Assembly: GCF_002019765.1 (NCBI RefSeq)
Contig: NZ_KV917380.1
Span: 2,700,667-2,764,666 of the forward strand
Length of the DNA stretch: 64,000 bases
Direction of reading: 5' to 3'
Source: Shouchella oshimensis
GTDB taxonomy: Bacteria; Bacillota; Bacilli; Bacillales; Bacillaceae_D
The first letter of the stretch is position 1. Every line of letters starts with the position of its first letter. The notes under the pieces were generated by a model. It worked only from the letters and a program-made list of their open reading frames with translations, made no database searches and was not told the DNA's origin. Shown here one piece after another: positions 14,692 through 60,351 of this stretch. The position numbers and the translations under genes were made by a program.

Positions 14692-16233
14692 ATGAGTAAA
14701 CAATCATTCCTTAAAGGTACATTAATCTTAATAATTGCTGGCTTTTTTACCAAACTACTTGGATTCATTAATCGTATGGTCATGGCGCGTATTCTCGGTC
14801 CTGAAGGTGTTGGGCTCTATATGATGGCCATTCCGACGATGTTACTTCTTTTAACGTTAACACAAATGGGACTGCCTGTCGCAATTGCTAAACTTGTTGC
14901 AGAGGCTGAAGCACGAAATGAATCGTTCAGAATCAAAAAAATACTCGTTGTATCTCTTGGGATAACAGGCGTGCTCTCAATTGTCTTTACGGTTTCACTT
15001 TTGTTACTCGCTCCTATTATCGCCACAACCTTGCTAACGGATACTCGAGCCATTTATCCACTATATGCGATTATACCAATTGTTCCTATTATCGCCCTCT
15101 CCTCTGTTCTAAGAGGATACTTTCAAGGCTTACAGAATATGAAGCCAACTGCATACGGGCAAGTCATTGAACAAATTGTTCGAATTACATTAGTTGCTGT
15201 ATTAAGCCTTGCTTTCTTACCTCTAGGTATTGAATACGCAGCCGCCGGAGCAATGCTTTCAGCCATATGTGGTGAACTAGCCTCTCTACTCTATATGGTT
15301 TATTTATTTAAAGCTAAAAAGCCCTTTCGGTTTCGTAAACAGTTCTTTTCGAGCATGAAAGGGGAAAAGAAAACATTCTCTGATTTACTCACAATCGCAC
15401 TACCAACAACTGGTAGTCGTTTAATTGGTACAACCGCTTTATTTTTTGAACCAATTGTTGTTGCCCAAAGTTTAGCGCTGGCAGGAACGGCTACAATTAT
15501 CGCGACCCAGCAATACGGTTTACTAGTTGGTTATGTAGTCCCTTTACTTACTTTGCCAACGTTTATTACGTACTCACTGTCTGTGTCTTTACTCCCGAAC
15601 TTAAGTGAAGCCGTAGCTCAGCAAAAGCATATGCTTGTTCATCATCGGCTTGAGCAAGCTATAAGGATTAGCCTGCTGTCAGGTGGCATTTGTGTTGTTA
15701 TTTTATATGTGTTTGCTAGTGAACTAATGACGATTATGTATCATGCTCCTGAAGCTGCTAGCCTACTAAAAATTATGGCTCCTTTTGCGCTATTTTTATA
15801 TTTGCAAGGACCTTTGCAAGCAGCCCTTCAAGCATTAAACTATGCGAAAGTTTCTATGATGAACAGTTTAATCGGTGCCATTATTAAAACAAGTGCCATT
15901 TTTGCACTCGCCTCTAACCCGAGTTTTGGGATCATGGGTGCCGCATTAGCCATTGTTGTTGGCTTTGTTCTCGTGACATTGTTACACTTTGCTTCAATTG
16001 CCAAAACAACGGGTTTTTTCTTCCATATTATCCCTATTATAAAATTGACGTTACTCATTGTTGCAACCGGTCTTTTAGCTAACTTACTAAACGACACACT
16101 TTTTCTAACCTTCTCTTACACTGTACGAGCGATTCTCAACATTGGCCTAACAACAACCTTTTATCTTCTAGGTATGTTTAGTTTGCAGCTCATTACAAAA
16201 GCAGAACTTCAACTATTCACACGTAAAAGATAG
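14692..16233 (+). CDS. spoVB: Stage V sporulation protein B (MurJ/MATE-like flippase)
   Basis: 513-residue polytopic membrane protein of the MOP flippase superfamily with about 14 hydrophobic segments, needed for spore cortex synthesis and thought to move lipid-linked precursors. N-terminal KGTLILIIAGFFTKLLGFIN and the RILGPEGVGLYMMAIP segment are characteristic. The position beside comN/secD matches B. subtilis. The SD (GCAGGA) is weak. It ends at a strong terminator shared with the next, opposed gene. Confidence 0.93.
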   Translation: MSKQSFLKGTLILIIAGFFTKLLGFINRMVMARILGPEGVGLYMMAIPTMLLLLTLTQMGLPVAIAKLVAEAEARNESFRIKKILVVSLGITGVLSIVFTVSLLLLAPIIATTLLTDTRAIYPLYAIIPIVPIIALSSVLRGYFQGLQNMKPTAYGQVIEQIVRITLVAVLSLAFLPLGIEYAAAGAMLSAICGELASLLYMVYLFKAKKPFRFRKQFFSSMKGEKKTFSDLLTIALPTTGSRLIGTTALFFEPIVVAQSLALAGTATIIATQQYGLLVGYVVPLLTLPTFITYSLSVSLLPNLSEAVAQQKHMLVHHRLEQAIRISLLSGGICVVILYVFASELMTIMYHAPEAASLLKIMAPFALFLYLQGPLQAALQALNYAKVSMMNSLIGAIIKTSAIFALASNPSFGIMGAALAIVVGFVLVTLLHFASIAKTTGFFFHIIPIIKLTLLIVATGLLANLLNDTLFLTFSYTVRAILNIGLTTTFYLLGMFSLQLITKAELQLFTRKR

Positions 16234-16628: not shown

Positions 16629-16991
16629 TTAATAAGGATCAATAAAAAAGCGGTCTTTTGCTCGAATGGAGCAGTACGAAATTTGTTTAATGTCATTGAA
16701 CCCAAATGCCTTTATATGTTGCCGGAGCCACAATTCAGTGCGTTCCAACTCTGCTAATCCGTTTCGATACACTTTCCCATCCACTATTACCGGAATGGCG
16801 CGTTGGCTCTTTCCCTTATTATCTGTCAGCAGTTCTGGTCTACGCACCGGATAGTTTGGCCTATTGCCTATCTTTCGTATCTTTCTCATCACTAAGAGCG
16901 TTCCGTACAGGAGAGAACCCTTTATCACTTTTATGATCACAAACACGATTTGCGAAGCTTGCACACTCAAACTTAATAAACGACTTACCAT
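16629..16991 (-). CDS. Short DUF421-type (YrbG/YetF-like) membrane protein
   Basis: 120 residues: one N-terminal hydrophobic segment (about 10-34) and a cytosolic domain reading RAIPVIVDGKVYRNGLAELE and then LWLRQHIKAFGFNDIKQISY, which resembles the C-terminal domain of DUF421 proteins. B. subtilis has yrbG in the same place, between spoVB and yrzE, but that protein has about 218 residues and several helices. This version therefore looks shortened at the N-terminus. The SD (AGGGGGG plus AGGA) is adequate, so it is probably expressed. Confidence 0.55.
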   Translation of the reverse strand: MVSRLLSLSVQASQIVFVIIKVIKGSLLYGTLLVMRKIRKIGNRPNYPVRRPELLTDNKGKSQRAIPVIVDGKVYRNGLAELERTELWLRQHIKAFGFNDIKQISYCSIRAKDRFFIDPY

Positions 16992-22115: not shown

Positions 22116-22646
22116 CTACCCCTTCTTGTCAACAATCGCATTTAATTCATCAACAGAAGATACTTTCATTCCTTTTGTAAGCGCGAGCTTTACGGAGGAA
22201 GCCAATGAATACTCGCTCAAATGGTCATAGGTTTGAATAATGTGCTTCGCTTCAGGTTGACCCGTATATAAAATTAAATGTTGATCATCAGACAAACCCA
22301 AATAGCCCTCTTGCTTAACCTCAGGTGATAGGTCAAGGAGTTCTTGCCTAAAATGAACAAACCCTTTTTTTTGATCCACCACTTGCCAATTACTATACTC
22401 ATACCAAAAATCCTGTAATGAATTAATCGCTTCTTTTCTCGTTTCTTCTTGACTTATACCATCGGCAAAAACGGTTTCAAACAAGAGCTCTACTTCATTG
22501 TCAGCCTGTTCTTTCACTGCCTCAGGACGACTTATTTCCGTTGGTTCACCCTCATTCCAAATAATAAATGTACTATAAAAAAGAATAACAGAAAACGCCC
22601 CAAGTACGAAGGGTAGCCAATGCTTATGAATGATTTTTTTGTACAT
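22116..22646 (-). CDS. bofC: BofC, forespore regulator of the sigma-K checkpoint
   Basis: 176 residues with an N-terminal membrane/signal segment (LPFVLGAFSVILFYSTFII) and the BofC C-terminal domain (DFWYEYSNWQVVDQKKGFVH, EGYLGLSDDQHLILYTG). In B. subtilis BofC inhibits SpoIVB, the forespore protease that triggers pro-sigma-K processing, and the gene lies next to ruvA, as here. It is intact, which bears on whether this lineage still sporulates. Confidence 0.9.
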   Translation of the reverse strand: MYKKIIHKHWLPFVLGAFSVILFYSTFIIWNEGEPTEISRPEAVKEQADNEVELLFETVFADGISQEETRKEAINSLQDFWYEYSNWQVVDQKKGFVHFRQELLDLSPEVKQEGYLGLSDDQHLILYTGQPEAKHIIQTYDHLSEYSLASSVKLALTKGMKVSSVDELNAIVDKKG

Positions 22647-24035: not shown

Positions 24036-25445
24036 TTAATCTTCATGCGTGTCTTTTTCATCATAATTATTCACTTGTTCTTTCGGTCCATAAGGAGCGT
24101 ACGATGCTTGCATTCCATGCATTGTCTCCCATTGGGGCGCCTGATTATGTGCAGACGCTTCTCGATATCCATACTCATTTTGTGTGTGCCCGTATTGCTC
24201 TATTTGAGGAGCATATGAGTCCATTTGTGGATAGAACCAACTTTGATTTGCACTGTTCCACTGACCATCTTTTTTTACAAACGTAGGAGATGGTTGTTGA
24301 TTTCCCATCCCTTGTTGCATTGGGGCGTGGTGGTTTCCTCCCATCCCTTGTTGCATTGGGGCGTGGTGGTTTCCTCCCATCCCTTGTTGCATTGAGGCGT
24401 GGTGGTTTCCTCCCATCCCTTGTTGCATTGGGGCTTGATGGTTTCCTCCCATTCCTTGTTGCATTGGGGCATGGTGGTTTCCTCCCATCCCTTGTTGCAT
24501 TGGGGCTTGATGGTTTCCTCCCATTCCTTGTTGCATTGGGGCATGGTGGTTTCCTCCCATCCCTTGTTGCATTGAGGCGTGGTGGTTTCCTCCCATCCCT
24601 TGTTGCATTGGCGCATGGTGGTTTCCTCCCATTCCTTGTTGCATTGAGGCGTGGTGGTTTCCTCCCATTCCTTGTTGCATGGGCGCATGGTGGTTTCCTC
24701 CCATCCCTTGTTGCATTGGGGCGTGGTGGTTTCCTCCCATCCCTTGTTGCATTGGGGCGTGGTGGTTTCCTCCCATCCCTTGTTGCATTGGGGCGTGGTG
24801 GTTTCCTCCCATCCCTTGTTGCATGGGCGCGTGGTGGTTTCCTCCCATCCCTTGTTGCATTGGGGCATGGTGGTTTCCATTGGTCGAATTCATCATTGAT
24901 TCAACAGGTGAAGATTCATTTGTTGTAGACCACTGATTCATTAAAGACGGAGAATTTCCAGTCATTTCTTGCATGTAATGAGTTTCATTCATCGATTGCG
25001 GACTGATTGACTGATTTGTTGCACTGACTTGCTGATTTGGGACATGTGGAGGTGTCTTAGGGTATGTTCCACATGACGAACAAGCTTGCTTTGGTGGCAA
25101 AGGCTTCGGTTCAGAGCTATATGATGCACTCTTTGGTGGCTGCGCCAATGTTTTCAAAGCACTTATAGAATCTAATTCGGTCGTGTTTGTAGCTGGTTTT
25201 TTTAATGGTTCAAGTTTTTCTTTTTTATTTAATAACGGTTTTTTTGGTTCTTTATTTGGTTCTTTAACAGATGTTTCTTTTCGAACAGCAACTGTTGGAG
25301 AAGGGATTTTCACCTTCATTCCTGGCATTAATACATCTGGATTCGTTATCGTCGAATTTGCTTGTTTAATTTGATTTAATGATAAATCATACTTATCCGC
25401 CAGTTTTCCTACAGTGTCCCCTTTTTGTACAATATGAATTCTCAT
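24036..25445 (-). CDS. safA: SafA-like spore-coat morphogenetic protein with LysM domain and long repeat tract
   Basis: 469 residues. The N-terminal LysM domain (MRIHIVQKGDTVGKLADKYD, residues 1-46) should bind cortex peptidoglycan, as in SafA. A Lys/Pro-rich linker follows, then 16 tandem 12-residue units of the form GNHHAPMQQGMG (with P/S and H/Q variants), and a Gln/Tyr-rich C-terminus. Synteny with coxA below and nadA above matches B. subtilis safA. The start at 25445 follows AGGGGGGAC. The His/Met/Gln repeat tract has no counterpart I recall in B. subtilis SafA and could bind metal or act as a cross-linking substrate (inference). Confidence 0.88.
   Translation of the reverse strand: MRIHIVQKGDTVGKLADKYDLSLNQIKQANSTITNPDVLMPGMKVKIPSPTVAVRKETSVKEPNKEPKKPLLNKKEKLEPLKKPATNTTELDSISALKTLAQPPKSASYSSEPKPLPPKQACSSCGTYPKTPPHVPNQQVSATNQSISPQSMNETHYMQEMTGNSPSLMNQWSTTNESSPVESMMNSTNGNHHAPMQQGMGGNHHAPMQQGMGGNHHAPMQQGMGGNHHAPMQQGMGGNHHAPMQQGMGGNHHAPMQQGMGGNHHASMQQGMGGNHHAPMQQGMGGNHHASMQQGMGGNHHAPMQQGMGGNHQAPMQQGMGGNHHAPMQQGMGGNHQAPMQQGMGGNHHASMQQGMGGNHHAPMQQGMGGNHHAPMQQGMGNQQPSPTFVKKDGQWNSANQSWFYPQMDSYAPQIEQYGHTQNEYGYREASAHNQAPQWETMHGMQASYAPYGPKEQVNNYDEKDTHED
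24303..24879 (-). repeat. 16 tandem 36-bp units inside safA
   Basis: In-frame 36-bp repeats, each encoding 12 residues. Units differ at a few positions giving Pro/Ser and His/Gln changes. A 72-bp double unit is duplicated exactly (about 24431-24502 and 24503-24574), pointing to recent slippage or unequal crossover. The absence of stops in several frames produces long shadow ORFs here. Confidence 0.95.
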
Positions 25446-25561
25446 TGGGTCGTCCCCCCTGTTATAGGCATTCGTACACACTATGCGCACTGATTCCATA
25501 ATGTTCCTCTTTAAAAATGATTATGAGAATAGTTTCAAGCATATGACGAGGACAACTTAAT

Positions 25562-26659
25562 TTATTTTACTGATAAAAGCATGCGATCTAAAGCCATTTT
25601 GGCATAATCGGTAATGGTTTTTGGTACGTTAATTTCAAATTGATAAACACCCTCACGTAGTAAATCAAGCGTCCAACACAAATGCTCAGGGTCAATTCGA
25701 TTCATAGTTAAGCAAGGGCACATATAAGGGTTCAAAGACTCAATCTGTTTGTCAGGATGTTGTCTCGCTAACCGATTAACCAAATTCATTTCTGTACCAA
25801 CTGCCCATTTTGTTCCTGATTCAGCTTCTTGGATCACCTGAATAATGTGACTGGTACTACCTGCATCATCAGCGGCTTGAACAACTTCATAGCTACATTC
25901 TGGATGCACAATAATGTTCATATCAGGAAATTGCGCTCGTTTTTCATTTATTTGGGAAACAGTAAATTTTTCATGAACCGAGCAATGACCTTTCCATAAA
26001 ATGATTCTAATTTCGTCTAAGTTGATACCATCCGCTCGTTCTAACTCATTTTTATGCGGACACCAAACAGCCATTTGTTCAAGTGGAATCCCAAGTTCAG
26101 CAGCTGTATTCCGACCAAGATGTTGATCGGGCAAAAACAAGAGTCGTTCTTTTTGATGCAACGCCCAGCTAACCATTTCTTTCGCATTAGACGAAGTCAA
26201 GCATGCTCCACCATGTTCGCCACAAAAAGCCTTGATAGCCGCAGTTGAATTGACATAGGTTAGGGGAACAAGGGTATTTCCGTACATCTCTGTTAAGCTT
26301 TTCCAAGCTCTTTTCGTTTGTGCATGCGTTGCCATATCTGCCATAGAACAGCCAGCTGCAAGGTCAGGTAAAAGAACAGTTTGACTTGGACTCGTTAACA
26401 TGTCTGCGGTTTCCGCCATGAAATGAACACCACAGAACACAATAAAGGCAGCATCACTTTTTGCACATAATTGAGCAAGCTGTAAGGAATCACCTGTCAC
26501 ATCAGCAAACTGAATCACGTCTTCTCGTTGATAGTGATGCCCCGGTATGAGTAATTCGTTACCAAAAAAGGCTTTAGCTTGATGGATCCGGCTTACTTTC
26601 TCTTCTGTTGACATCGTACGGTAATGCTCTGGAAGAATCGTTGGTTTTACTAGTTCCAC
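25562..26659 (-). CDS. nadA: Quinolinate synthase A
   Basis: 365 residues; condenses iminoaspartate with dihydroxyacetone phosphate, using a 4Fe-4S cluster. Segments visible are [42 protein letters not shown] and [13 protein letters not shown], carrying cluster cysteines. The start is a GTG at 26659 (SD AGAGG). It is last in nadB-nadC-nadA; six bases separate it from nadC. Confidence 0.97.
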
Positions 26660-26665
26660 TTTCCG

Positions 26666-27505
26666 TCATCCTCTCTTAAGTAACATGCTTAAATCAAGTG
26701 CTTTAACTGAATGGGTAATAAACCCTAAAGATAGAAAGTCTACTCCTGTGCCTGCATAAAGGTGTATCGTAGACAGATCAATCCCTCCAGAAGCTTCAGT
26801 TCGGATGGAAGGTGGCACAAGTTTTTGGTACGTGCGTATCTCGTCCGGTGAAGCATTATCAAACATAATGACATCTGCAGCCGCCGCCACAGCCTCTTTT
26901 ACTTCCTCGGCATTTGTTGTTTCTACTTCAATTTTCATCATCGGTCCCGCTATCGCTTTTACACGACGAACAGCCTTTGAAATGGAACCACATGCTGCAA
27001 TATGATTTTCCTTTAACATAACAGCATCATGTAAGCCATTACGGTGATTGTAACCACCACCAGCGCGACAGGCTGCTTTATCAAACATTCTAAGACCTGG
27101 TGCCGTTTTTCTTGTATCACACAAGCGGATTGAAGGGTCATTTAAACGCTCTTTTGCTAAATGAACCGTTGAAGCAATGCCACACATACGTTGCAATACA
27201 TTTAATAAAACACGCTCCCCTTGAAGGAGTGTATACACATTTCCTTCTAACGTTGCAAGAACATCCCCTTTTTCAATAAACTGTCCTTCTGTTTTAGAAC
27301 TAGTGATATTAATCTCATGATCAAAAAGCGTAAAATACGTATGCAGCACTTGTTCTCCTGAAAATACACCTGCATCTTTAGCCACTATTTCAGCAGTTAC
27401 GCTCCCCGCGGATTTAGAAAAAATACTTTCAGATGTTTCGTCCCTATCGCCAATATCTTCTAAAATGAACTGCTTTAGCGCTTCTCTTACTTTAATGGTG
27501 TTCAC
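26666..27505 (-). CDS. nadC: Nicotinate-nucleotide pyrophosphorylase (carboxylating)
   Basis: 279 residues; turns quinolinate plus PRPP into nicotinate mononucleotide. The signature RLCDTRKTAPGLR, the CRAGGGYNHRNGL loop and the C-terminal TEASGGIDLSTIHLYAGTGV are intact. GTG start five bases after AAGGAGG. It overlaps nadB by 14 bases. Confidence 0.97.
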   Translation of the reverse strand: MNTIKVREALKQFILEDIGDRDETSESIFSKSAGSVTAEIVAKDAGVFSGEQVLHTYFTLFDHEINITSSKTEGQFIEKGDVLATLEGNVYTLLQGERVLLNVLQRMCGIASTVHLAKERLNDPSIRLCDTRKTAPGLRMFDKAACRAGGGYNHRNGLHDAVMLKENHIAACGSISKAVRRVKAIAGPMMKIEVETTNAEEVKEAVAAAADVIMFDNASPDEIRTYQKLVPPSIRTEASGGIDLSTIHLYAGTGVDFLSLGFITHSVKALDLSMLLKRG

Positions 27506-29012
27506 AGAAACCTCCTTGGTTTACTACTGACATTTTCCCACTGCAAAAACGAATGGTTCGCTCTTTCCAAAAAGAGGATGTAGCGAAAAAGTCACTTCGT
27601 TGGTGAGTTCCTCTTGTTTCTTCCCTCGTTAGCGCCGCCCGGGTAATGAAGGTCGCTACTTCAAACATACCCTTATCTTCAGTAGACTGCTTACAGGATG
27701 CAGGCTGCCTTCGATAGACATCAAACCACTCTAGCATCTCGTGCAATTCTTGTTGAGAGCGCTTTATTCCTACTTGATGCATCATCCGCTGTTGTAGTTC
27801 CTCCCGCTTAGGTAATAAATGTTCTTGAGGGTCTATACGCACTAAGGAAGAGGTATCATCTAATTGAACGATAGGTGCTTTTTTAGATTCCGATACTAGA
27901 TGATCTGCACATGCTGTTGCAAAATAAATGGCTTCCAGTAAAGAATTGCTTGCAAGTCGGTTTGCACCATGAGCACCAGAACAAGCAACTTCCCCAATCG
28001 CATATAATTGTTCAACTGCCGTCCTTCCGACTTGATCGACTTCCACTCCTCCACAAATAAAATGGGCTCCTGGTGCAACAGGAATTGGTTTCATTGCCGG
28101 ATCGATTCCCTCTCGTATACATGCTTGATAAAGAAATGGGAACCGAGTTGAAAAATAATCGAGATGCCTCACATCTAAATAAATGGCTTCACCTTGCAAC
28201 ATTGCTTCATGCAGCACAGCTGAAACAAGATCTCTTCCTTCTAAATCGCCTTGTGGGTATCGACCTAACAGACGCTCTTGTTTACCATTTACTAAATAGC
28301 CTCCTTCGCCGCGAACAGCTTCACTCATTAAGATTGAATGTTTCCCCTTTAATATCGTTGGATGAAATTGTATGTACTCTAAATCTTTTAATACTGCACC
28401 TGCTTGATAAGCGAGAAACATTCCTTCTCCTGTAGCCGTTGGTGAATTTGAATTTACTTCGAACAGTTGGCCAACTCCGCCTGTCGCCATTACAACAAAA
28501 TCAGCTTGCCACTCTCCTTCTAACGTGCAGATTCCCGTAACGACACTCCCTTTTTTAATTAATCCCGTTACCTCTGCATGTTCATATACCGTTACGCGAG
28601 GAGCGACACGTTCCCATAACGTTTCTACAATGGTCTTACCTGTTTGATCTTTCACATGAACGATTCGACTTTTTTGATGTGCTCCCTCACGTCCAAGGGC
28701 ATAATAGCCATCCTGCTTATCAAACGAAACACCCATCTCTTCAAGCTCATGAATGAGGTAACTTGCCTTTTCCGTAATCGATTTGACTAGCCATTCGTCG
28801 TTTACTCCTTTCCCGGCATGTAACGTGTCTTGAAAATGATAAATGGGATGGTCCTCCTTATCTAGGGCTGCTGCTATACCTCCTTGGGCAGAGGCTGAGT
28901 TGCTTTCTATATAAGCAGACTTTGTGAAAATAATCACATTCAATTGGTCAGCAAGCTTATGAGCTGCAACCAAACTAGCGATTCCAGATCCTATAATAAT
29001 AACTGTTTTCAA
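27492..29012 (-). CDS. nadB: L-aspartate oxidase
   Basis: 506-residue flavoenzyme oxidising aspartate to iminoaspartate. The FAD-binding GSGIASLVAAHKLA is at the N-terminus, SASAQGGIAAAL near residue 45, and the catalytic segment EYIQFHPT and GEVACSGAHGANRLASNSLL further on. The TTG start at 29012, behind AGGAGG, is preferred over the longer frame to 29084, which would run through the operator region. First gene of the NAD operon, divergent from nadS. Confidence 0.96.
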   Translation of the reverse strand: MKTVIIIGSGIASLVAAHKLADQLNVIIFTKSAYIESNSASAQGGIAAALDKEDHPIYHFQDTLHAGKGVNDEWLVKSITEKASYLIHELEEMGVSFDKQDGYYALGREGAHQKSRIVHVKDQTGKTIVETLWERVAPRVTVYEHAEVTGLIKKGSVVTGICTLEGEWQADFVVMATGGVGQLFEVNSNSPTATGEGMFLAYQAGAVLKDLEYIQFHPTILKGKHSILMSEAVRGEGGYLVNGKQERLLGRYPQGDLEGRDLVSAVLHEAMLQGEAIYLDVRHLDYFSTRFPFLYQACIREGIDPAMKPIPVAPGAHFICGGVEVDQVGRTAVEQLYAIGEVACSGAHGANRLASNSLLEAIYFATACADHLVSESKKAPIVQLDDTSSLVRIDPQEHLLPKREELQQRMMHQVGIKRSQQELHEMLEWFDVYRRQPASCKQSTEDKGMFEVATFITRAALTREETRGTHQRSDFFATSSFWKERTIRFCSGKMSVVNQGGFCEHH

Positions 29013-29028
29013 ATGAACCTCCTGTCTG

Positions 29029-29070
29029 TGTAAATATACACTTGTCTTGTCACCTATATTTACATAGAAT
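29029..29070. promoter_or_regulatory. Divergent nadB/nadS regulatory region with probable NiaR operator
   Basis: A 10-bp inverted repeat, TGTAAATATA (29029-29038) and TATATTTACA (29055-29064), encloses CACTTGTCTTGTCACC. The centre resembles my recollection of the NiaR (YrxA) motif around TGTCTTGACA. A rightward promoter for nadS fits TTGTCT (29042-29047), 17 bases, TAGAAT (29065-29070), overlapping the operator. NiaR is encoded just downstream of nadS. Confidence 0.65.
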
Positions 29071-29106
29071 AAAAGAAAACACAACTACAATTTTTAAGGA
29101 GCGATT

Positions 29107-30219
29107 ATGCATTATTTTGACTATAGTTCTACAACACCAATGTCGGAAAGGGCGCTTAAAGCTTACCAAGAATGTGCAATAAAGCAGTTTGCTAACCCTA
29201 TGAGCCCTCATACACTTGGCGTTCACGCTGAATGGCATTTGCTTCATTATCGAGAACGAATTGCAAAGCAATTAAACGTGGAGCACAATGCCATTTACTT
29301 TACAGGATCTGGGTCTGAAGCGAATTTTTTAGCCATTGTTTCATTAGTTCGTTCATTGGGTCATAAAGGAAAGCACATACTTACAACAAAGACAGAGCAT
29401 CCATCCATATTATCGACTTTTTTGTACTTACAAACACAAGGATATGACGTTGATTATGTGGACGTTCTGCCGACTGGTGAGGTGTCAATCCCATCCTTAC
29501 TAGCAACTATTCGCGAAGACACTGTGTTTTGTTCAGTTGCAATTGCCGCAAGTGAAATAGGCACCATACAGAATGTACACATCCTTAGTGAGATTTTACG
29601 AAGTCATGATATACTATTTCATAGTGATTGTGTTCAAGGTTTAGGAAAGATCGACATCGACCTTTCATTAGTCGATGCAGCCAGTTTTTCTGCTCATAAG
29701 TTGTACGCTCCAAAAGGTTTAGGTATCATTTATTTAGCACCTGAGCATTATTTCAAACCTTTTCTACATGCTGTTACTCATGAGTATGGAATGAGACCAG
29801 GTACTGTGGATTTGCCGGCTATTGCTGCTTTTACAGTTGAACTTGAACACGCATTTTCTATTAGGAAGACACTCTCAGATCGGCACATTCGTTGGCAGCG
29901 TTTCATTCTTTCACAACTAGCTCAAGACGTTTCAATTGTTGGCACTACGGTTCCTAAGCGTTTACCTTTTCATCTAGGATTGATGGTACACGGATGGAGC
30001 GGCCAACAATTTATGCTTGAATGTAGTCGTGCTGGATTATGTATTGGAATTGGTTCAGCTTGTCAAGTTGGACAAACCAAGCCCTCTAAAGCTTTACTCG
30101 CTCTTGGATACACAGCTGAGTATGTTCAACAATACATTCGTGTTACGTTCGGAGAGCCAACAACATCAGAAGATATCTCTTTCTTAATTCAGACGTTTAA
30201 GACAATATTAACAAGGTGA
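29107..30219 (+). CDS. nadS: NifS/IscS-like cysteine desulfurase linked to NAD synthesis
   Basis: 370-residue PLP enzyme. It starts MHYFDYSSTTPMSERALKAY; the PLP lysine lies in SFSAHKLYAPKGLG; the catalytic cysteine is in GIGSACQVG near residue 320. In B. subtilis the gene at this place (nadS/nifS) supplies sulfur for the NadA cluster. Divergent from nadB, with niaR overlapping its end. Confidence 0.93.
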   Translation: MHYFDYSSTTPMSERALKAYQECAIKQFANPMSPHTLGVHAEWHLLHYRERIAKQLNVEHNAIYFTGSGSEANFLAIVSLVRSLGHKGKHILTTKTEHPSILSTFLYLQTQGYDVDYVDVLPTGEVSIPSLLATIREDTVFCSVAIAASEIGTIQNVHILSEILRSHDILFHSDCVQGLGKIDIDLSLVDAASFSAHKLYAPKGLGIIYLAPEHYFKPFLHAVTHEYGMRPGTVDLPAIAAFTVELEHAFSIRKTLSDRHIRWQRFILSQLAQDVSIVGTTVPKRLPFHLGLMVHGWSGQQFMLECSRAGLCIGIGSACQVGQTKPSKALLALGYTAEYVQQYIRVTFGEPTTSEDISFLIQTFKTILTR

Positions 30220-31743: not shown

Positions 31744-32187
31744 CTATGAGCCAGAGCCAACCATTTCTACTCGCTCGACTGCTTCAAGTGATTTCATTTT
31801 TGCAAATAAATCATGGAGCCCAATTTGAATTGGGGCGGTATCCACGGATAAGGTAATGCTCGCTCGACCTTGAAGTGGAATCGTTTGATTGATTGTTAAT
31901 ATATTCGCTCCGGTACTGGCAACAATTTGAAGTAATTCTGATAACGTCCCGGATCGATCTTCTAAATTAATCATTAACGTAATAATACGTTCTTTATTCA
32001 CAGAATGAAAAGGGAAGATACCATCCTTATATTTATAGAATGCACTTCGACTGATGCCCACAAGCTGAACGGCTTCATTAATTTTCGCTGCTTTTCCAGT
32101 TGCAAGTAATGCCTTTGCTTCTAATGTTCGTTGCATTGCATCGGTTAACATATCTTCTCTTACTAGAAAAAACTGATTTTCACTCAC
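31744..32187 (-). CDS. pheB: ACT-domain protein PheB
   Basis: 147 residues from a GTG at 32187, the same length as B. subtilis PheB; an upstream ATG at 32214 would add nine residues. It holds FFLVREDMLTDAMQRTLEAK, a predicted HTH-like stretch (INEAVQLVGISRSAFYKYKD) and a C-terminal ACT domain (LIMINLEDRSG-like ITLMINLEDRSGTLSELLQI). Its biochemical role is unresolved; it is co-transcribed with obg and pheA. Confidence 0.9.
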   Translation of the reverse strand: MSENQFFLVREDMLTDAMQRTLEAKALLATGKAAKINEAVQLVGISRSAFYKYKDGIFPFHSVNKERIITLMINLEDRSGTLSELLQIVASTGANILTINQTIPLQGRASITLSVDTAPIQIGLHDLFAKMKSLEAVERVEMVGSGS

Positions 32188-32223
32188 CCTTCGTATCCCC
32201 CCAATCGTATTCATTCGTCTAGC

Positions 32224-33510
32224 CTATTCAATAAACTCAAATTCAAATTTCATAATTCGAACCATGTCACCGTCTTTAGCGCCTTTTTCACGTAAAGCCG
32301 CATCAACACCCATTCGTCTTAGCTTTCGAGCAAATCGTCGGACTGATTCGTCCCTTGCGAAATCCGTCATCTTAAATACACGCTCAAGCTCAGCACCACT
32401 CACTTCATAGACACCGTCATCTGCACGTGTAATGATGAATGGATCAACCGGTGTTTCATGACGATATACTACTCGTGCTTCTTCATCTGTCTCTTTATCA
32501 TGTAACGGAAACTCTGGCGCATGCTCTAATTCATCCGCTATCGCCAAAAGAAGCTCTCTTACACCCTCTCGCGTAATCGCAGACATCGGATGAATATGAA
32601 CATCTTCATCCATTTCTTGTTTAAATCTCTCTAGATTCTCAGCTGCATCTGGCATGTCCATTTTGTTGGCTACAATGATTTGCGGCCGCTCTGTTAAACG
32701 ATAATTATACTGTTCAAGTTCTGCTGTAATCTTTTTATAGTCGTCAACGGGATCGCGTCCTTCCATCGCCGACATATCAATTAAGTGAACGATAACACGT
32801 GTACGTTCAATATGACGCAAGAATTGGTGTCCAAGACCTACCCCCTCATGGGCGCCTTCAATTAATCCAGGTAAATCAGCCATAACAAAACTACGATTAT
32901 CCTGTGTGTCAACAACACCTAAATTCGGTGTAATCGTTGTAAAATGGTAATCAGCAATTTTCGGCTTTGCTGCTGAGACAATTGAAAGCAACGTTGACTT
33001 CCCAACAGATGGAAAACCAACTAGTCCAACATCAGCTAATACTTTAAGTTCAAGAACTAAATTTCGTTCAATTCCTGGCTCCCCATTTTCAGCATGGTCT
33101 GGGGCTGGGTTTGCTGGTGTAGCAAATCGAACGTTTCCACGTCCACCTCGACCACCCTTTGCCACAATAGCTGATTGGCCATGTTCTGTTAAATCAGCAA
33201 TAAGTGCTCCGGTCGTTTCATCGGTTACTGTGGTTCCAGGTGGGACTGAAACCACTAAATCTTTGGCGTTTTTCCCATGCATGTTTTTTGACATCCCATG
33301 TTCTCCACGTTTTGCTTTAAAATGACGGTTGTAACGAAAATCCATCAAGGTACGCAATCCCTCATCTACTTGTAACACGACATTGGCGCCACGGCCACCA
33401 TCTCCACCAGCTGGACCACCATCAGGGACATATTTTTCACGACGATAAGCAACCATACCGTTTCCTCCGTCGCCACCTTTTGCATATACCTTAACTTTAT
33501 CTATAAACAT
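32224..33510 (-). CDS. obg: GTPase Obg
   Basis: 428 residues: Gly-rich Obg domain ([20 protein letters not shown]), G domain (G1 [11 protein letters not shown]3 [13 protein letters not shown]4 NKMD) and C-terminal OCT domain. An essential ribosome-associated GTPase that in B. subtilis also affects Spo0A activation. The start overlaps the end of the decayed spo0B reading frame (ATGTTTATAG), retaining what was probably translational coupling. SD AGAGGTGG. Confidence 0.97.
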
Positions 33511-34055
33511 TTAGATTCCACCTCTATATAACCCACGGTGCTTTCATAAGCTACTCGTAGCGTTGTAATTGCGTTCGTTTGTTCCTTAATTACTGTATCT
33601 CATCTAATGATACTGGGCTATTATCCATTGTCTCCCTATAACATTTGATCAAAACTGATTAATCAAACTAGAAGAATTAAAAAAGTGAAGAAAATATGCA
33701 ATTGCCTCGTATCATTTTCTATGATCGTGACATAAGCTAAAAAGAATGCCTTAGCGAACAAATCAAATGCTTGTTCCGTTTGCTAAACAGAATGGTTTTC
33801 CATTTCTTTCAGCGTTCGTAAGGGATTCGTATATTACTTTTGCATTTAAATGGTTATAAAGGCTTGTGGTAAGTCCAAGCTACTCAACCGTCACTTGCAG
33901 TTTGACAGACCGTATGATTGATAATCGTTCTAACCTGTTCGAGGTTCCTCAATGCACGATTTCCCTAAATCCGCTGCATCACGTTCACCCAATCGTTACA
34001 GATTAAAGCAAAAACTTGATTATCTCTTTACTGTGTCTTTCGTCGTCAACACTCC
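33501..34055 (-). pseudogene. spo0B: Decayed spo0B (sporulation phosphotransferase)
   Basis: No open gene occupies the place of spo0B, but its codons can be followed on the reverse strand. From 34024 it reads DNQVFALICNDWVNVMQRI, then a TAG (33967-33965), then GNRALRNLEQVRTIIN. This matches the Spo0B four-helix region around RHDW-N---Q-I-GN; the phosphorylated His codon has become AAC (Asn, 33997-33995). After shifts of frame come SLDLPQAFITI, TEQAFDLFAKAFFLAY, VTIIENDTRQLHIFF, SPVSLDEIQ and the C-terminal [20 protein letters not shown], in Spo0B order. There are several stops and at least two frameshifts. An SD-like AAAAGGAG remains at about 34060. Family assignment is from memory of the B. 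subtilis sequence and from synteny with obg. Confidence 0.85.
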
Positions 34056-34232: not shown

Positions 34233-34301
34233 ATGTTAATGACAATGAAAAAAATACATTCAATTTCATATGTTTCGTTTTGTTCACACACCATTCGTTA
34301 A
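34233..34301 (+). CDS. Short leader peptide ORF 1 (22 aa)
   Basis: ATG nine bases after AAAAGGAG; the peptide is MLMTMKKIHSISYVSFCSHT followed by IR and stop. An alternative ATG at 34224 touches the SD. Its stop TAA overlaps another ATG (34301), which begins an eight-codon ORF ending at 34327. Short basic N-terminus, no recognised domain. Confidence 0.5.
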   Translation: MLMTMKKIHSISYVSFCSHTIR

Positions 34302-34337
34302 TGCACATTCTTTTAAATATGGCTTAGCATACAGTGA

Positions 34338-34387
34338 ACAGGTAAACGAAGGGCTTTTATTGCCTTTTAAGAGAACCTGTATTTTTT
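34338..34387 (+). terminator. Terminator-like hairpin between leader ORFs 1 and 2
   Basis: ACAGGT (34338-34343) pairs with ACCTGT (34375-34380), and an inner AAGGGC pairs with GCCTTT; the outer arm is followed by ATTTTTTATG. It looks like an attenuator in the middle of the locus. Confidence 0.55.
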
Positions 34388-34425
34388 ATGCCTATTTACT
34401 GGAAAATTTTAGAAAAGGAGTGTCT

Positions 34426-34500
34426 ATGATGACAATTATGCAATGCCAACTGCAAGCACATTTATTAATGATGATCGATGAGGTGCCAGGCTTTACCTAA
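34426..34500 (+). CDS. Short leader peptide ORF 2 (24 aa)
   Basis: AAAAGGAG, five bases, ATG. The peptide is MMTIMQCQLQAHLLMMIDEV then PGFT and stop. It resembles ORF 1 only in its Met-rich start. Its last codons (from 34480) form the 5' arm of a hairpin that competes with one covering the next SD. Confidence 0.6.
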   Translation: MMTIMQCQLQAHLLMMIDEVPGFT

Positions 34501-34535: not shown

Positions 34536-34673
34536 ATGACTTTTTCAATTTTGTTCTTTTCTATTCATATTAAAAAACGAACGTATTCAAAAAAAGAGCT
34601 AGAGACCATTGTCTATAATAATAAAGCAATGGAACGATTAGATGAAATACGCACAACGTATTACATGCATTAA
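34536..34673 (+). CDS. YrzI-family small protein
   Basis: 45 residues: MTFSILFFSIHIKKRTYSKK, then ELETIVYNNKAMERLDEI and RTTYYMH. The hydrophobic N-terminus followed by KK-R-YS-KELE fits the small YrzI family (sometimes listed as a probable sporulation protein). In B. subtilis yrzI sits in an mRNA with several tiny ORFs that is a target of the ribosome-associated RNase Rae1 (from memory). SD GGAGGT. Function unknown. Confidence 0.7.
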   Translation: MTFSILFFSIHIKKRTYSKKELETIVYNNKAMERLDEIRTTYYMH

Positions 34674-34674
34674 A

Positions 34675-34708
34675 AAAAGTGACGTGATATTGCCATCACG
34701 TCACTTTT
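34675..34708. terminator. Bidirectional terminator between the yrzI-like gene and hemY
   Basis: AAAAGTGACGTGAT (34675-34688) pairs with ATCACGTCACTTTT (34695-34708), six-base loop, A- and T-runs at the ends. Confidence 0.9.
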
Positions 34709-36084
34709 ACTGTATCAGCTATTTTTTTCGCTATTTCATTTCCTTGTTTCACACAGTCAGGAACCCCTACACCTTCAAATGCAGCACCGGCAACATGTAA
34801 GCCAGAATGTGTTGCAGTTAAATCATGTACAAGTCGTTGTACCCGTTCAACATGACCAACCTTATATTGTGGCATCGCTTCATACCACCTTGTGATTTGT
34901 ACGTGCTCAGGGTCAGCTTCACAATTCATAATACCTTTTAAATCTGCTAAAACAGCATTTGTTATCGATTCGTCATTTTCATAAACAATCTCAGGCTGAT
35001 TAGGTTTCCCTACATAGGCACGCATTAGCGTTTTACCTGGCTTTCCTGTATGTGGCCATTTTACATCTGTCCACGTGCAAGCTGTTATTGTCTCATCCCC
35101 GTCTCGAGCAACCACAAAACCGGTTCCTTCATAAGGATTATGAATGGCATAGTCTGGAAAGGTTAAAGCAACGGTCGCACAACTTGTAGCTGTCAGAGCT
35201 TGCAATTGTTGTTCGATCTTTTTATCTGGTATTAATTGACTCGCTTTTTGTGGTGGCGTCGTGATGAGTACAGAGTGATATGGTCCTTTTCGCTCACCGT
35301 TTGTTAAACAGACTAAATAACGATTGTCGCCTTCCTTCACAATTTCTTCCACTTGTGTGTTGAAGAAAACACGATCTTCTTTAAGGTTTTTAACAACTGC
35401 CTCAAAGACCGACTGTAGACCCGTTTTAACGGTTAAAAACATACCTTGTTTTTTTACGTTTTCTTCAGGCTGTTGCTTTTTTTCAAGTGCTTTGAGCAGA
35501 CTACCTTCTTCCTCCATCTTTAAGAAATGAGGGAAAGTCGCTTTCATACTTAACTCGTAAATATTTCCACCATAAATTCCACCTAACAAAGGTTCAATTA
35601 ATGAAGAAACCATTTCTTTTCCTAATCGATGTTCAAAGAAATCGCCTAACGAGATATCCCCATTCACTCTAGGAGCCATTGGCTTATCATATTCCTTTAA
35701 AAGTTCTTTCTTGCCGTCAGTAGAAAGTAAATCCGTTTTCATGAATTCATCTAAATCAGTAGGAATACCTAAAACCGTTCGCTTTGGATTCGGATATAGC
35801 ACACCATCTTTTAAAATGTATGCTTGTCCTACTTCGTTACGAACCAGCTCATCATACAAACCCACTCTCTTAATTAAGTCAGTCATGGCTACTTTACGCT
35901 CTAAATAAGAATCTGCACCACCTTCAATGATAAACCCGTCATCCATCATTGTTACAACCTTACCACCAGCACGATCTTGTTGCTCAAACACATGGTACTC
36001 TAAGGATGTATGATCTTCTAACCATAGTGCAGCAGCTAATCCAGTAGCTCCTGCACCGATTATTGCTACTTGGTTATCACTCAT
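34696..36084 (-). CDS. hemY: Coproporphyrinogen/protoporphyrinogen oxidase HemY
   Basis: 462-residue FAD enzyme of late haem synthesis (CgoX type in Gram-positives). N-terminal [28 protein letters not shown], and C-terminal [18 protein letters not shown] mark the family. It overlaps hemH by eight bases and is third in hemE-hemH-hemY. Confidence 0.96.
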
Positions 36085-60144: not shown

Positions 60145-60351
60145 TTATTTTTGGTAACCGCCACTCATTTGTTGTTCAGCCATTTTAACTAAACGTTTAG
60201 TGATTTCCCCACCAACTGAACCGTTAGCACGTGCAGTTGTATCAGGACCAAGGTTAACACCAAATTCTGAAGCGATTTCGTACTTCATTTGGTCAATTGC
60301 TTGTTGTACACCAGGTACAACTAGGTTGTTTGAACTTCTGTTATCTGCCAT
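60145..60351 (-). CDS. Alpha/beta-type small acid-soluble spore protein
   Basis: 68 residues: [20 protein letters not shown], the GPR protease site (YEIASEFGV) and [19 protein letters not shown]. Coats spore DNA. SD GGAGGTG. B. subtilis sspB lies near yheE in the same way. It supports a spore-forming ancestry. Confidence 0.97.

Follow-up and report, generated by a model that had tools for sequence, protein, structure and literature searches.

The slot upstream of obg in the Shouchella genome studied here holds a pseudogene of spo0B (33544-34043, minus strand), dead in this lineage, while the kinases, Spo0F and Spo0A of the same phosphorelay are still under selection. Since the gene has long been dead and its partners are still selected, neither a recent loss of sporulation nor general decay explains its state. 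The best explanation overall, to which we give a probability of about 0.5, joins a dead spo0B and constrained partners to Spo0B-free sporulation, with direct transfer of phosphate from a kinase to Spo0A.

The genome (G000) is a single contig of 4,058,377 bases and is 99.98% complete. The window is the whole stretch of 64,000 nucleotides that was analysed (G000:C1:2700667-2764666), and short coordinates refer to it. The nearest relatives used were S. miscanthi AK13 (G002) and G003, which a tree built from the codons of obg and pheB joins to G000 with support 100 (its G005 row sits on an odd long branch); a more distant genome, G009, served as outgroup. The obg gene (32224-33510, minus) is intact, and its protein is 99% identical to that of G003. 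On its 3′ side lies an ACT-type gene (31744-32214, minus) that we take to be pheB and that was the anchor for locating the slot in relatives, and upstream of the slot lies a hemY-type gene (34696-36084, minus), presumably hemY itself. Between the spo0B remnant and this gene are two small plus-strand open reading frames, 34270-34500 (76 aa) and 34536-34673 (45 aa).

Pfam PF14682 was rejected as a presence test because it misses the divergent intact Spo0B proteins of G002, G003 and G009, and a profile of 40 Bacillaceae Spo0B sequences (A1) was used instead. Run against the whole genome, A1 matches the remnant at E 1.1e-6, with one TAG inside the match. In the slot, two collinear frames reach 28.7 and 9.4 bits, against a peak of 5.2 bits in 200 shuffled slots, and the slot DNA aligns with the spo0B genes at the same place in G002, G003 and G009, all intact and with the motif SIRHDWLN. 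These three results together argue that the match is not due to chance. The initial annotation, which had proposed a decayed spo0B beside an intact obg, staked the proposal on a significant Spo0B alignment, and the alignment is significant; with its adjacency to obg and its intact aligned orthologs, the slot shows its descent from spo0B.

Compared with the intact G003 gene, the start codon has changed from ATG to ACG (34041-34043, minus), the codon of the phospho-accepting His from CAT to AAC, or Asn (33995-33997, minus), so that RHDW reads CNDW, and an AAG ten codons further on has become an in-frame TAG (33965-33967, minus); more stops follow. The remnant reading ...CNDWVNVMQRI*GNRALRNLEQVRTIINHTVCQTA... 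tracks the active-site helix of Spo0B, with Asn at the His site and the TAG ten codons on. The best-kept piece, 33896-33994 on the minus strand (G000:C1:2734562-2734660), matches the Pfam family SPOB_a (PF14689) at E 0.00129, below the cut-off. In the alignment with G003, on which the count depends, the remnant differs by 12 indels, all but one of a length not divisible by three, against a single in-frame indel between the intact genes of G009 and G003. The slot thus has neither an open frame of about 180-190 codons with a start codon nor the His of the RHD/RHE motif, which is invariant in A1, although the rows of A1 had been picked by that motif. The Asn codon, the early TAG, the further stops and the frameshifts (at least two had been claimed) were all read correctly at the outset. 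The tail of the gene was not: 30 C-terminal codons had been described as retained, and there is a 10-bp deletion near position 461 and a 2-bp insertion near position 520 of the 522-bp coding sequence, whose former stop lies near 33547-33544 (minus). Nor is there a preserved overlap with the ATG of obg, since spo0B of G003 ends 32 bp ahead of it and there was no overlap to keep.

The conserved genes compared show no general decay. G003 and G009 have 97 conserved genes in common. In G000, 93 of these are intact, spo0B is broken, and three are cut by, or lie past, the ends of the window; none of 92 is broken in G003, and spo0B was the sole conserved gene found broken in G000 within the stretches compared. 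The neighbouring sporulation genes had been called intact. This holds for spoVB (14692-16233, plus; TIGR02900, 551 bits against a cut-off of 372.3), for bofC (22116-22646, minus; PF08955 and PF08977 above cut-off, with no NCBIfam match) and for an alpha/beta SASP gene (60145-60351, minus; PF00269, 80 bits against a cut-off of 22), and falls short for the safA-type coat gene (24036-25499, minus), whose TIGR02899 score of 62.1 bits is just under the cut-off of 67.85. A five-gene run at 24036-30219, made up of safA and nad-type genes (some of whose names are our assumption), has 82-90% protein identity to G003, below most genes of the window.

To date the loss, substitutions were placed on the G000 or the G003 branch with G009 as outgroup. 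At codon positions 1/2/3, spo0B has 26/24/12 changes on the G000 branch (166/167/163 sites) and 5/3/9 on the G003 branch, which for positions 1 and 2 together is 50 against 8 (binomial p 1.6e-8); position 3 is undercounted because G009 is distant. The remaining genes that exceed 100 codons and have an outgroup, 26,959 codons in all, give 441/209/2179 and 401/188/2084, and outside spo0B the two branches are alike. The fourfold sites of 154 genes served as a neutral clock. Held fixed, this clock gives spo0B an unconstrained share of the G000 branch of 1.08 (0.70-1.46); resampling it by gene gives 1.07 (0.71-1.48), and a local clock drawn from genes at 28-40 kb gives 0.97. Neutral evolution of the gene thus covers about 70% or more of the branch that leads from the S. 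miscanthi split to G000, and a share near 1 places its death at, or soon after, that split, across which the median synonymous divergence is 0.43. The suggestion of a recent loss has to be dropped, as the sporulation genes stayed constrained over the same time.

Local hypermutation at the slot was considered and is not supported: the flanking genes diverge to an ordinary degree, and the upstream intergenic DNA aligns closely by eye. One of the 154 genes, a 120-aa gene at 16629-16991 (minus), equals the dead spo0B in position-2 divergence from G003 (0.183 against 0.180 for spo0B), yet it is open in both genomes and its changes are even across the branches (2/5/9 and 4/6/7).

At the spo0B rate, 35 changes at positions 1 and 2 would be expected in Spo0F on the G000 branch, 79 in Spo0A and 129 in spoIVB; the counts are 2, 1 and 4. 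The dN/dS values to G003 are 0.016 for Spo0F and 0.006 for Spo0A, against a median of 0.043 for genes over 100 aa. Thirteen sporulation genes with an outgroup (eight spoIIIA genes, which we named by order and length, with spoIVB, spoVB, bofC, safA and SASP) together changed 84 times at positions 1 and 2 on the way to G000 and 79 times on the way to G003. Spo0F, Spo0A and the compared sporulation genes are thus shown to have been under purifying selection on the G000 branch. The safA gene goes against the trend, with 12 position-2 changes towards G000 against 2 towards G003, and we count this excess against the main reading. Open frames are present in G000 for SpoIVA, SigE, SigF, SigG, SpoVT, CotE and SpoIIID, the presence of SigG being taken from second matches of the SigF query, and SigE, SigF, SigG, SpoIIAB, SpoIVB and SpoIIID score above the NCBIfam cut-offs. 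From this pattern the lineage probably continued to sporulate, and to use Spo0F and the kinases, without Spo0B. The constraint on Spo0F could also come from a job outside sporulation.

At the start of spo0F, the ATG of G002 and G003 is ACG in G000 (L046, near 1486). Decay of spo0F by this route was rejected: a GTG is the next codon, an AGGAGG stands ahead and the frame is constrained. Spo0A of G000 is unchanged at N12, E14, P60, Q90 and D92, which we take to be the bypass positions, so a bypass change there is rejected as well; a search for literature on N12K, D92Y or sof found none among the matches listed. About 26 kb before the window are two SigE-like pieces (G000:C1:2616413-2616712 and 2673948-2674307), about 57 kb apart here and about 52 kb apart in G003, which we read as halves of sigK, as if parted by a skin-type element that needs excision in sporulation.

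The initial annotation also called for spo0F, spo0A and kin genes to be sought in the rest of the genome, and besides the constrained Spo0F and Spo0A the search found four orphan kinases. HisKA has 18 matches in G000 and 22 in G003; every one of the 18 has its best match at 85-99% identity in the stretches fetched from G003, so that by HisKA no kinase was gained in G000. Four of the G000 kinases (419, 374, 549 and 573 aa) have an HE[VLI]RNPL box and no response-regulator-like neighbour, and by their sequences are shown to be conserved kinases of the sporulation type. The 419-aa kinase carries a 5TM-5TMR_LYT domain, in which it presumably resembles KinB. The four are identical to their G003 counterparts over the stretch that starts at the H-box and takes in the six specificity residues; just behind it, two of them differ by one or two residues. 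The specificity residues are TVGFQL, SVGFQL, TSGFQL and TTGFQL, all of relay type; residues of the clostridial NxSAQx type occur in none of the four (the mapping of the letters in Table 1 of Davidson 2018, as far as that source was available, onto kinase positions is inferred). Since these residues are the same in G003, which has Spo0B, nothing has visibly been retargeted in G000.

The SVGFQL kinase, of 374 aa (G000:2543103-2544227), is the slowest of the four, with a dN/dS of 0.036 against 0.10-0.12 for the other three, and compared with S. shacheensis in three of the four kinases the G000 branch has not gathered extra changes (7 against 8, 1 against 1 and 12 against 8). Its ortholog is retained in S. 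shacheensis, which is without Spo0B, and its specificity residues are one letter off SVGLQL (of a "C." species). On these three grounds it is the best putative direct donor to Spo0A; with an SVGFQL kinase also in the Spo0B-bearing G003, it is a candidate and no more.

Loss of Spo0B is repeated elsewhere. Among 39 genomes at least 95% complete, 36 give a Spo0B match over the full length, interrupted by one TGA in three cases; the exceptions, all of them Shouchella, are G000 (its one match being to a kinase), G004 and G007 (S. shacheensis). G004 has no pheB match, and the absence of its Spo0B rests on the profile search and the family survey. We also collected 91 obg slots (80 loci less L121, which is without obg, plus 11 and the window), in which seven genomes occur twice, leaving 84 distinct genomes. 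A 90-codon open frame bearing RH[DE][WYLVMH] is found in 84 of the 91 slots, and L118 also scores as intact. An intact spo0B is missing from two slots of S. shacheensis (L064 and L071), from L094 (Salipaludibacillus neizhouensis), L098 (Bacillus piscicola) and L105 (Alteribacillus persepolensis), and from the window, or from 5 of the 84 genomes.

In the obg slots of B. piscicola and S. shacheensis no remnant of spo0B was found. The A. persepolensis slot contains weak collinear pieces of 10.7, 7.5, 2.1 and 1.4 bits, while none of 200 shuffled slots exceeds 5.2. Spread over several frames, the pieces form a second, independent, though weak, decayed spo0B remnant. In S. neizhouensis, spo0B is split by an IS110-family insertion (L284:2521-4909), which looks recent, as both parts of the gene still match the profile. 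A group II intron was rejected there, the insert having no Rfam match and carrying an IS110-family transposase. Directly upstream of this spo0B is an orphan-type histidine kinase (L284:5000-6124) with HEIRNPL and TSGFQL.

Spo0F is matched in all five other genomes in which Spo0B is absent or broken (G004, G007, G014, G015 and G016), the match of B. piscicola, at 49% identity, being the least sure. S. shacheensis, G004, B. piscicola and A. persepolensis, all without Spo0B, have SpoIVA, SigE, SigF, SigG, SpoVT, CotE and SpoIIID; G014-G016 come without a completeness figure. In a tree of Spo0A and Spo0F, G004 joins G007 (support 68) well away from G000, which implies at least two losses within Shouchella. 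Spo0A of S. shacheensis (L040, G007), alone of 13 Shouchella, has Asn at the equivalent of B. subtilis D92, a site at which changes can bypass Spo0B.

The Shouchella genus description gives the genus as endospore-forming (PMC8543038, in the part available). Table 4 of Galperin 2012, as available, lists spo0B in all bacilli. The accessible parts of Davidson 2018 report both Spo0F and Spo0B in every spore-forming member of the Bacilli sampled there, two Erysipelatoclostridium strains excepted, nearly all species with both proteins or neither, and for the two no role beyond the sporulation relay, and they argue that relay-to-direct remodelling happened repeatedly. Neither paper, in those parts, describes Spo0F without Spo0B in Bacillaceae, and the titles and abstract starts among the open-access matches listed do not name a loss of spo0B in that family. 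For Paenibacillus, Lin 2025, also available in part, found that of 1,460 genomes only one lacks Spo0B.

Seen against these systems, G000 is like the Bacillus phosphorelay (kinase - Spo0F - Spo0B - Spo0A) in its four orphan HE[VLI]RNPL kinases, assigned to the relay type from their residues, in its open and constrained Spo0F and in a constrained Spo0A with the specificity residues of B. subtilis; it is unlike that relay in its dead spo0B. With direct phosphorylation in clostridia it shares the absence of Spo0B and the presence of Spo0A and orphan kinases, but a genome of that kind encodes neither Spo0F nor Spo0B, whereas G000 keeps a constrained Spo0F and relay-type kinase residues. The Spo0B-TM of Paenibacillus is similar in showing Spo0B to vary more than any other relay member, and different in that Spo0B is retained there and gone in G000 (Lin 2025, same parts).

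Three ways out had been offered at the start: a recent loss, a Spo0B elsewhere, or phosphorylation of Spo0A by another route. By elimination the last is the one we favour, though the strain may well be unable to sporulate today. In one form of it, we propose tentatively that after the loss of spo0B an orphan kinase, with the 374-aa protein as best candidate, would pass phosphate straight to Spo0A, and that Spo0F would be retained as a competing or buffering receiver, loaded by kinases and drained by phosphatases. The recurrence of Spo0B-less genomes with Spo0F counts for direct transfer, as does the Asn of S. shacheensis Spo0A. Against it count the relay-type kinase residues, the same in G003, and the unchanged Spo0A of G000, and also the result, in the available part of Davidson 2018, that B. 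subtilis KinA phosphorylates Spo0A of D. acetoxidans only with both Spo0F and Spo0B.

A less likely course is that another protein does the Spo0B step as a non-orthologous third member, either an unrelated phosphotransferase or the His domain of a kinase that relays phosphate from Spo0F~P to Spo0A. A working relay of this kind predicts what is seen in Spo0F, the kinases and Spo0A, namely retained relay specificity residues and constraint, and up to E 1 the only other A1 matches in G000 are two CitA/DcuS-type kinases (E 9.7e-9 and 0.006). These two have close counterparts in G003, carry their own sensor domains and have a neighbour that looks like a response regulator, and G000 has no HisKA gene without a G003 counterpart. 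An Hpt search gave one match in G000, in an open frame of 675 aa, and one in G003, in a frame of similar length (660 aa), each judged by size to be probably CheA, so that no Hpt protein was gained; a phosphotransferase without a recognisable domain would escape these searches.

That the lineage no longer sporulates, its other genes being kept for other reasons or having had too little time to decay, is somewhat less probable again. B. subtilis requires both Spo0F and Spo0B for sporulation (Davidson 2018, available part), and the insertion in S. neizhouensis spo0B is what a strain losing sporulation might show. Time was not short, however, with spo0B neutral for most of the branch, and over that time the 13 sporulation genes changed no faster than in G003 to any marked degree (84 against 79), while the seven sporulation proteins searched for have kept open frames. 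A working spo0B on a plasmid or in a stretch absent from the assembly is very improbable: a lost or unassembled plasmid would leave no trace in a one-contig assembly, but the assembly is nearly complete, A1 finds no second spo0B in the whole genome up to E 1, and tblastn with S. miscanthi Spo0B gives one weak partial Paenibacillus match and no Shouchella copy in 72,556 plasmid records and no match in 50,697 phage records (records of close kin possibly excluded from both).

Sporulation without Spo0B, by direct transfer to Spo0A, remains the reading we prefer. In G000, Spo0F has been strongly selected while its partner was dead for most of a species split, in contrast to the both-or-neither rule in the available text of Davidson 2018; either Spo0F acts without Spo0B, or Spo0B is replaceable. 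These genomes may, tentatively, represent a third Spo0 architecture, in which Bacilli sporulate with Spo0F and without Spo0B; it would have arisen several times in Bacillaceae and been kept by selection, with kinases reaching Spo0A directly and Spo0F acting as a regulator, a living intermediate between relay and direct phosphorylation. With G000 and the S. miscanthi lineage as a pair, culturable bacteria are at hand in which to test how a relay passes into direct phosphorylation.
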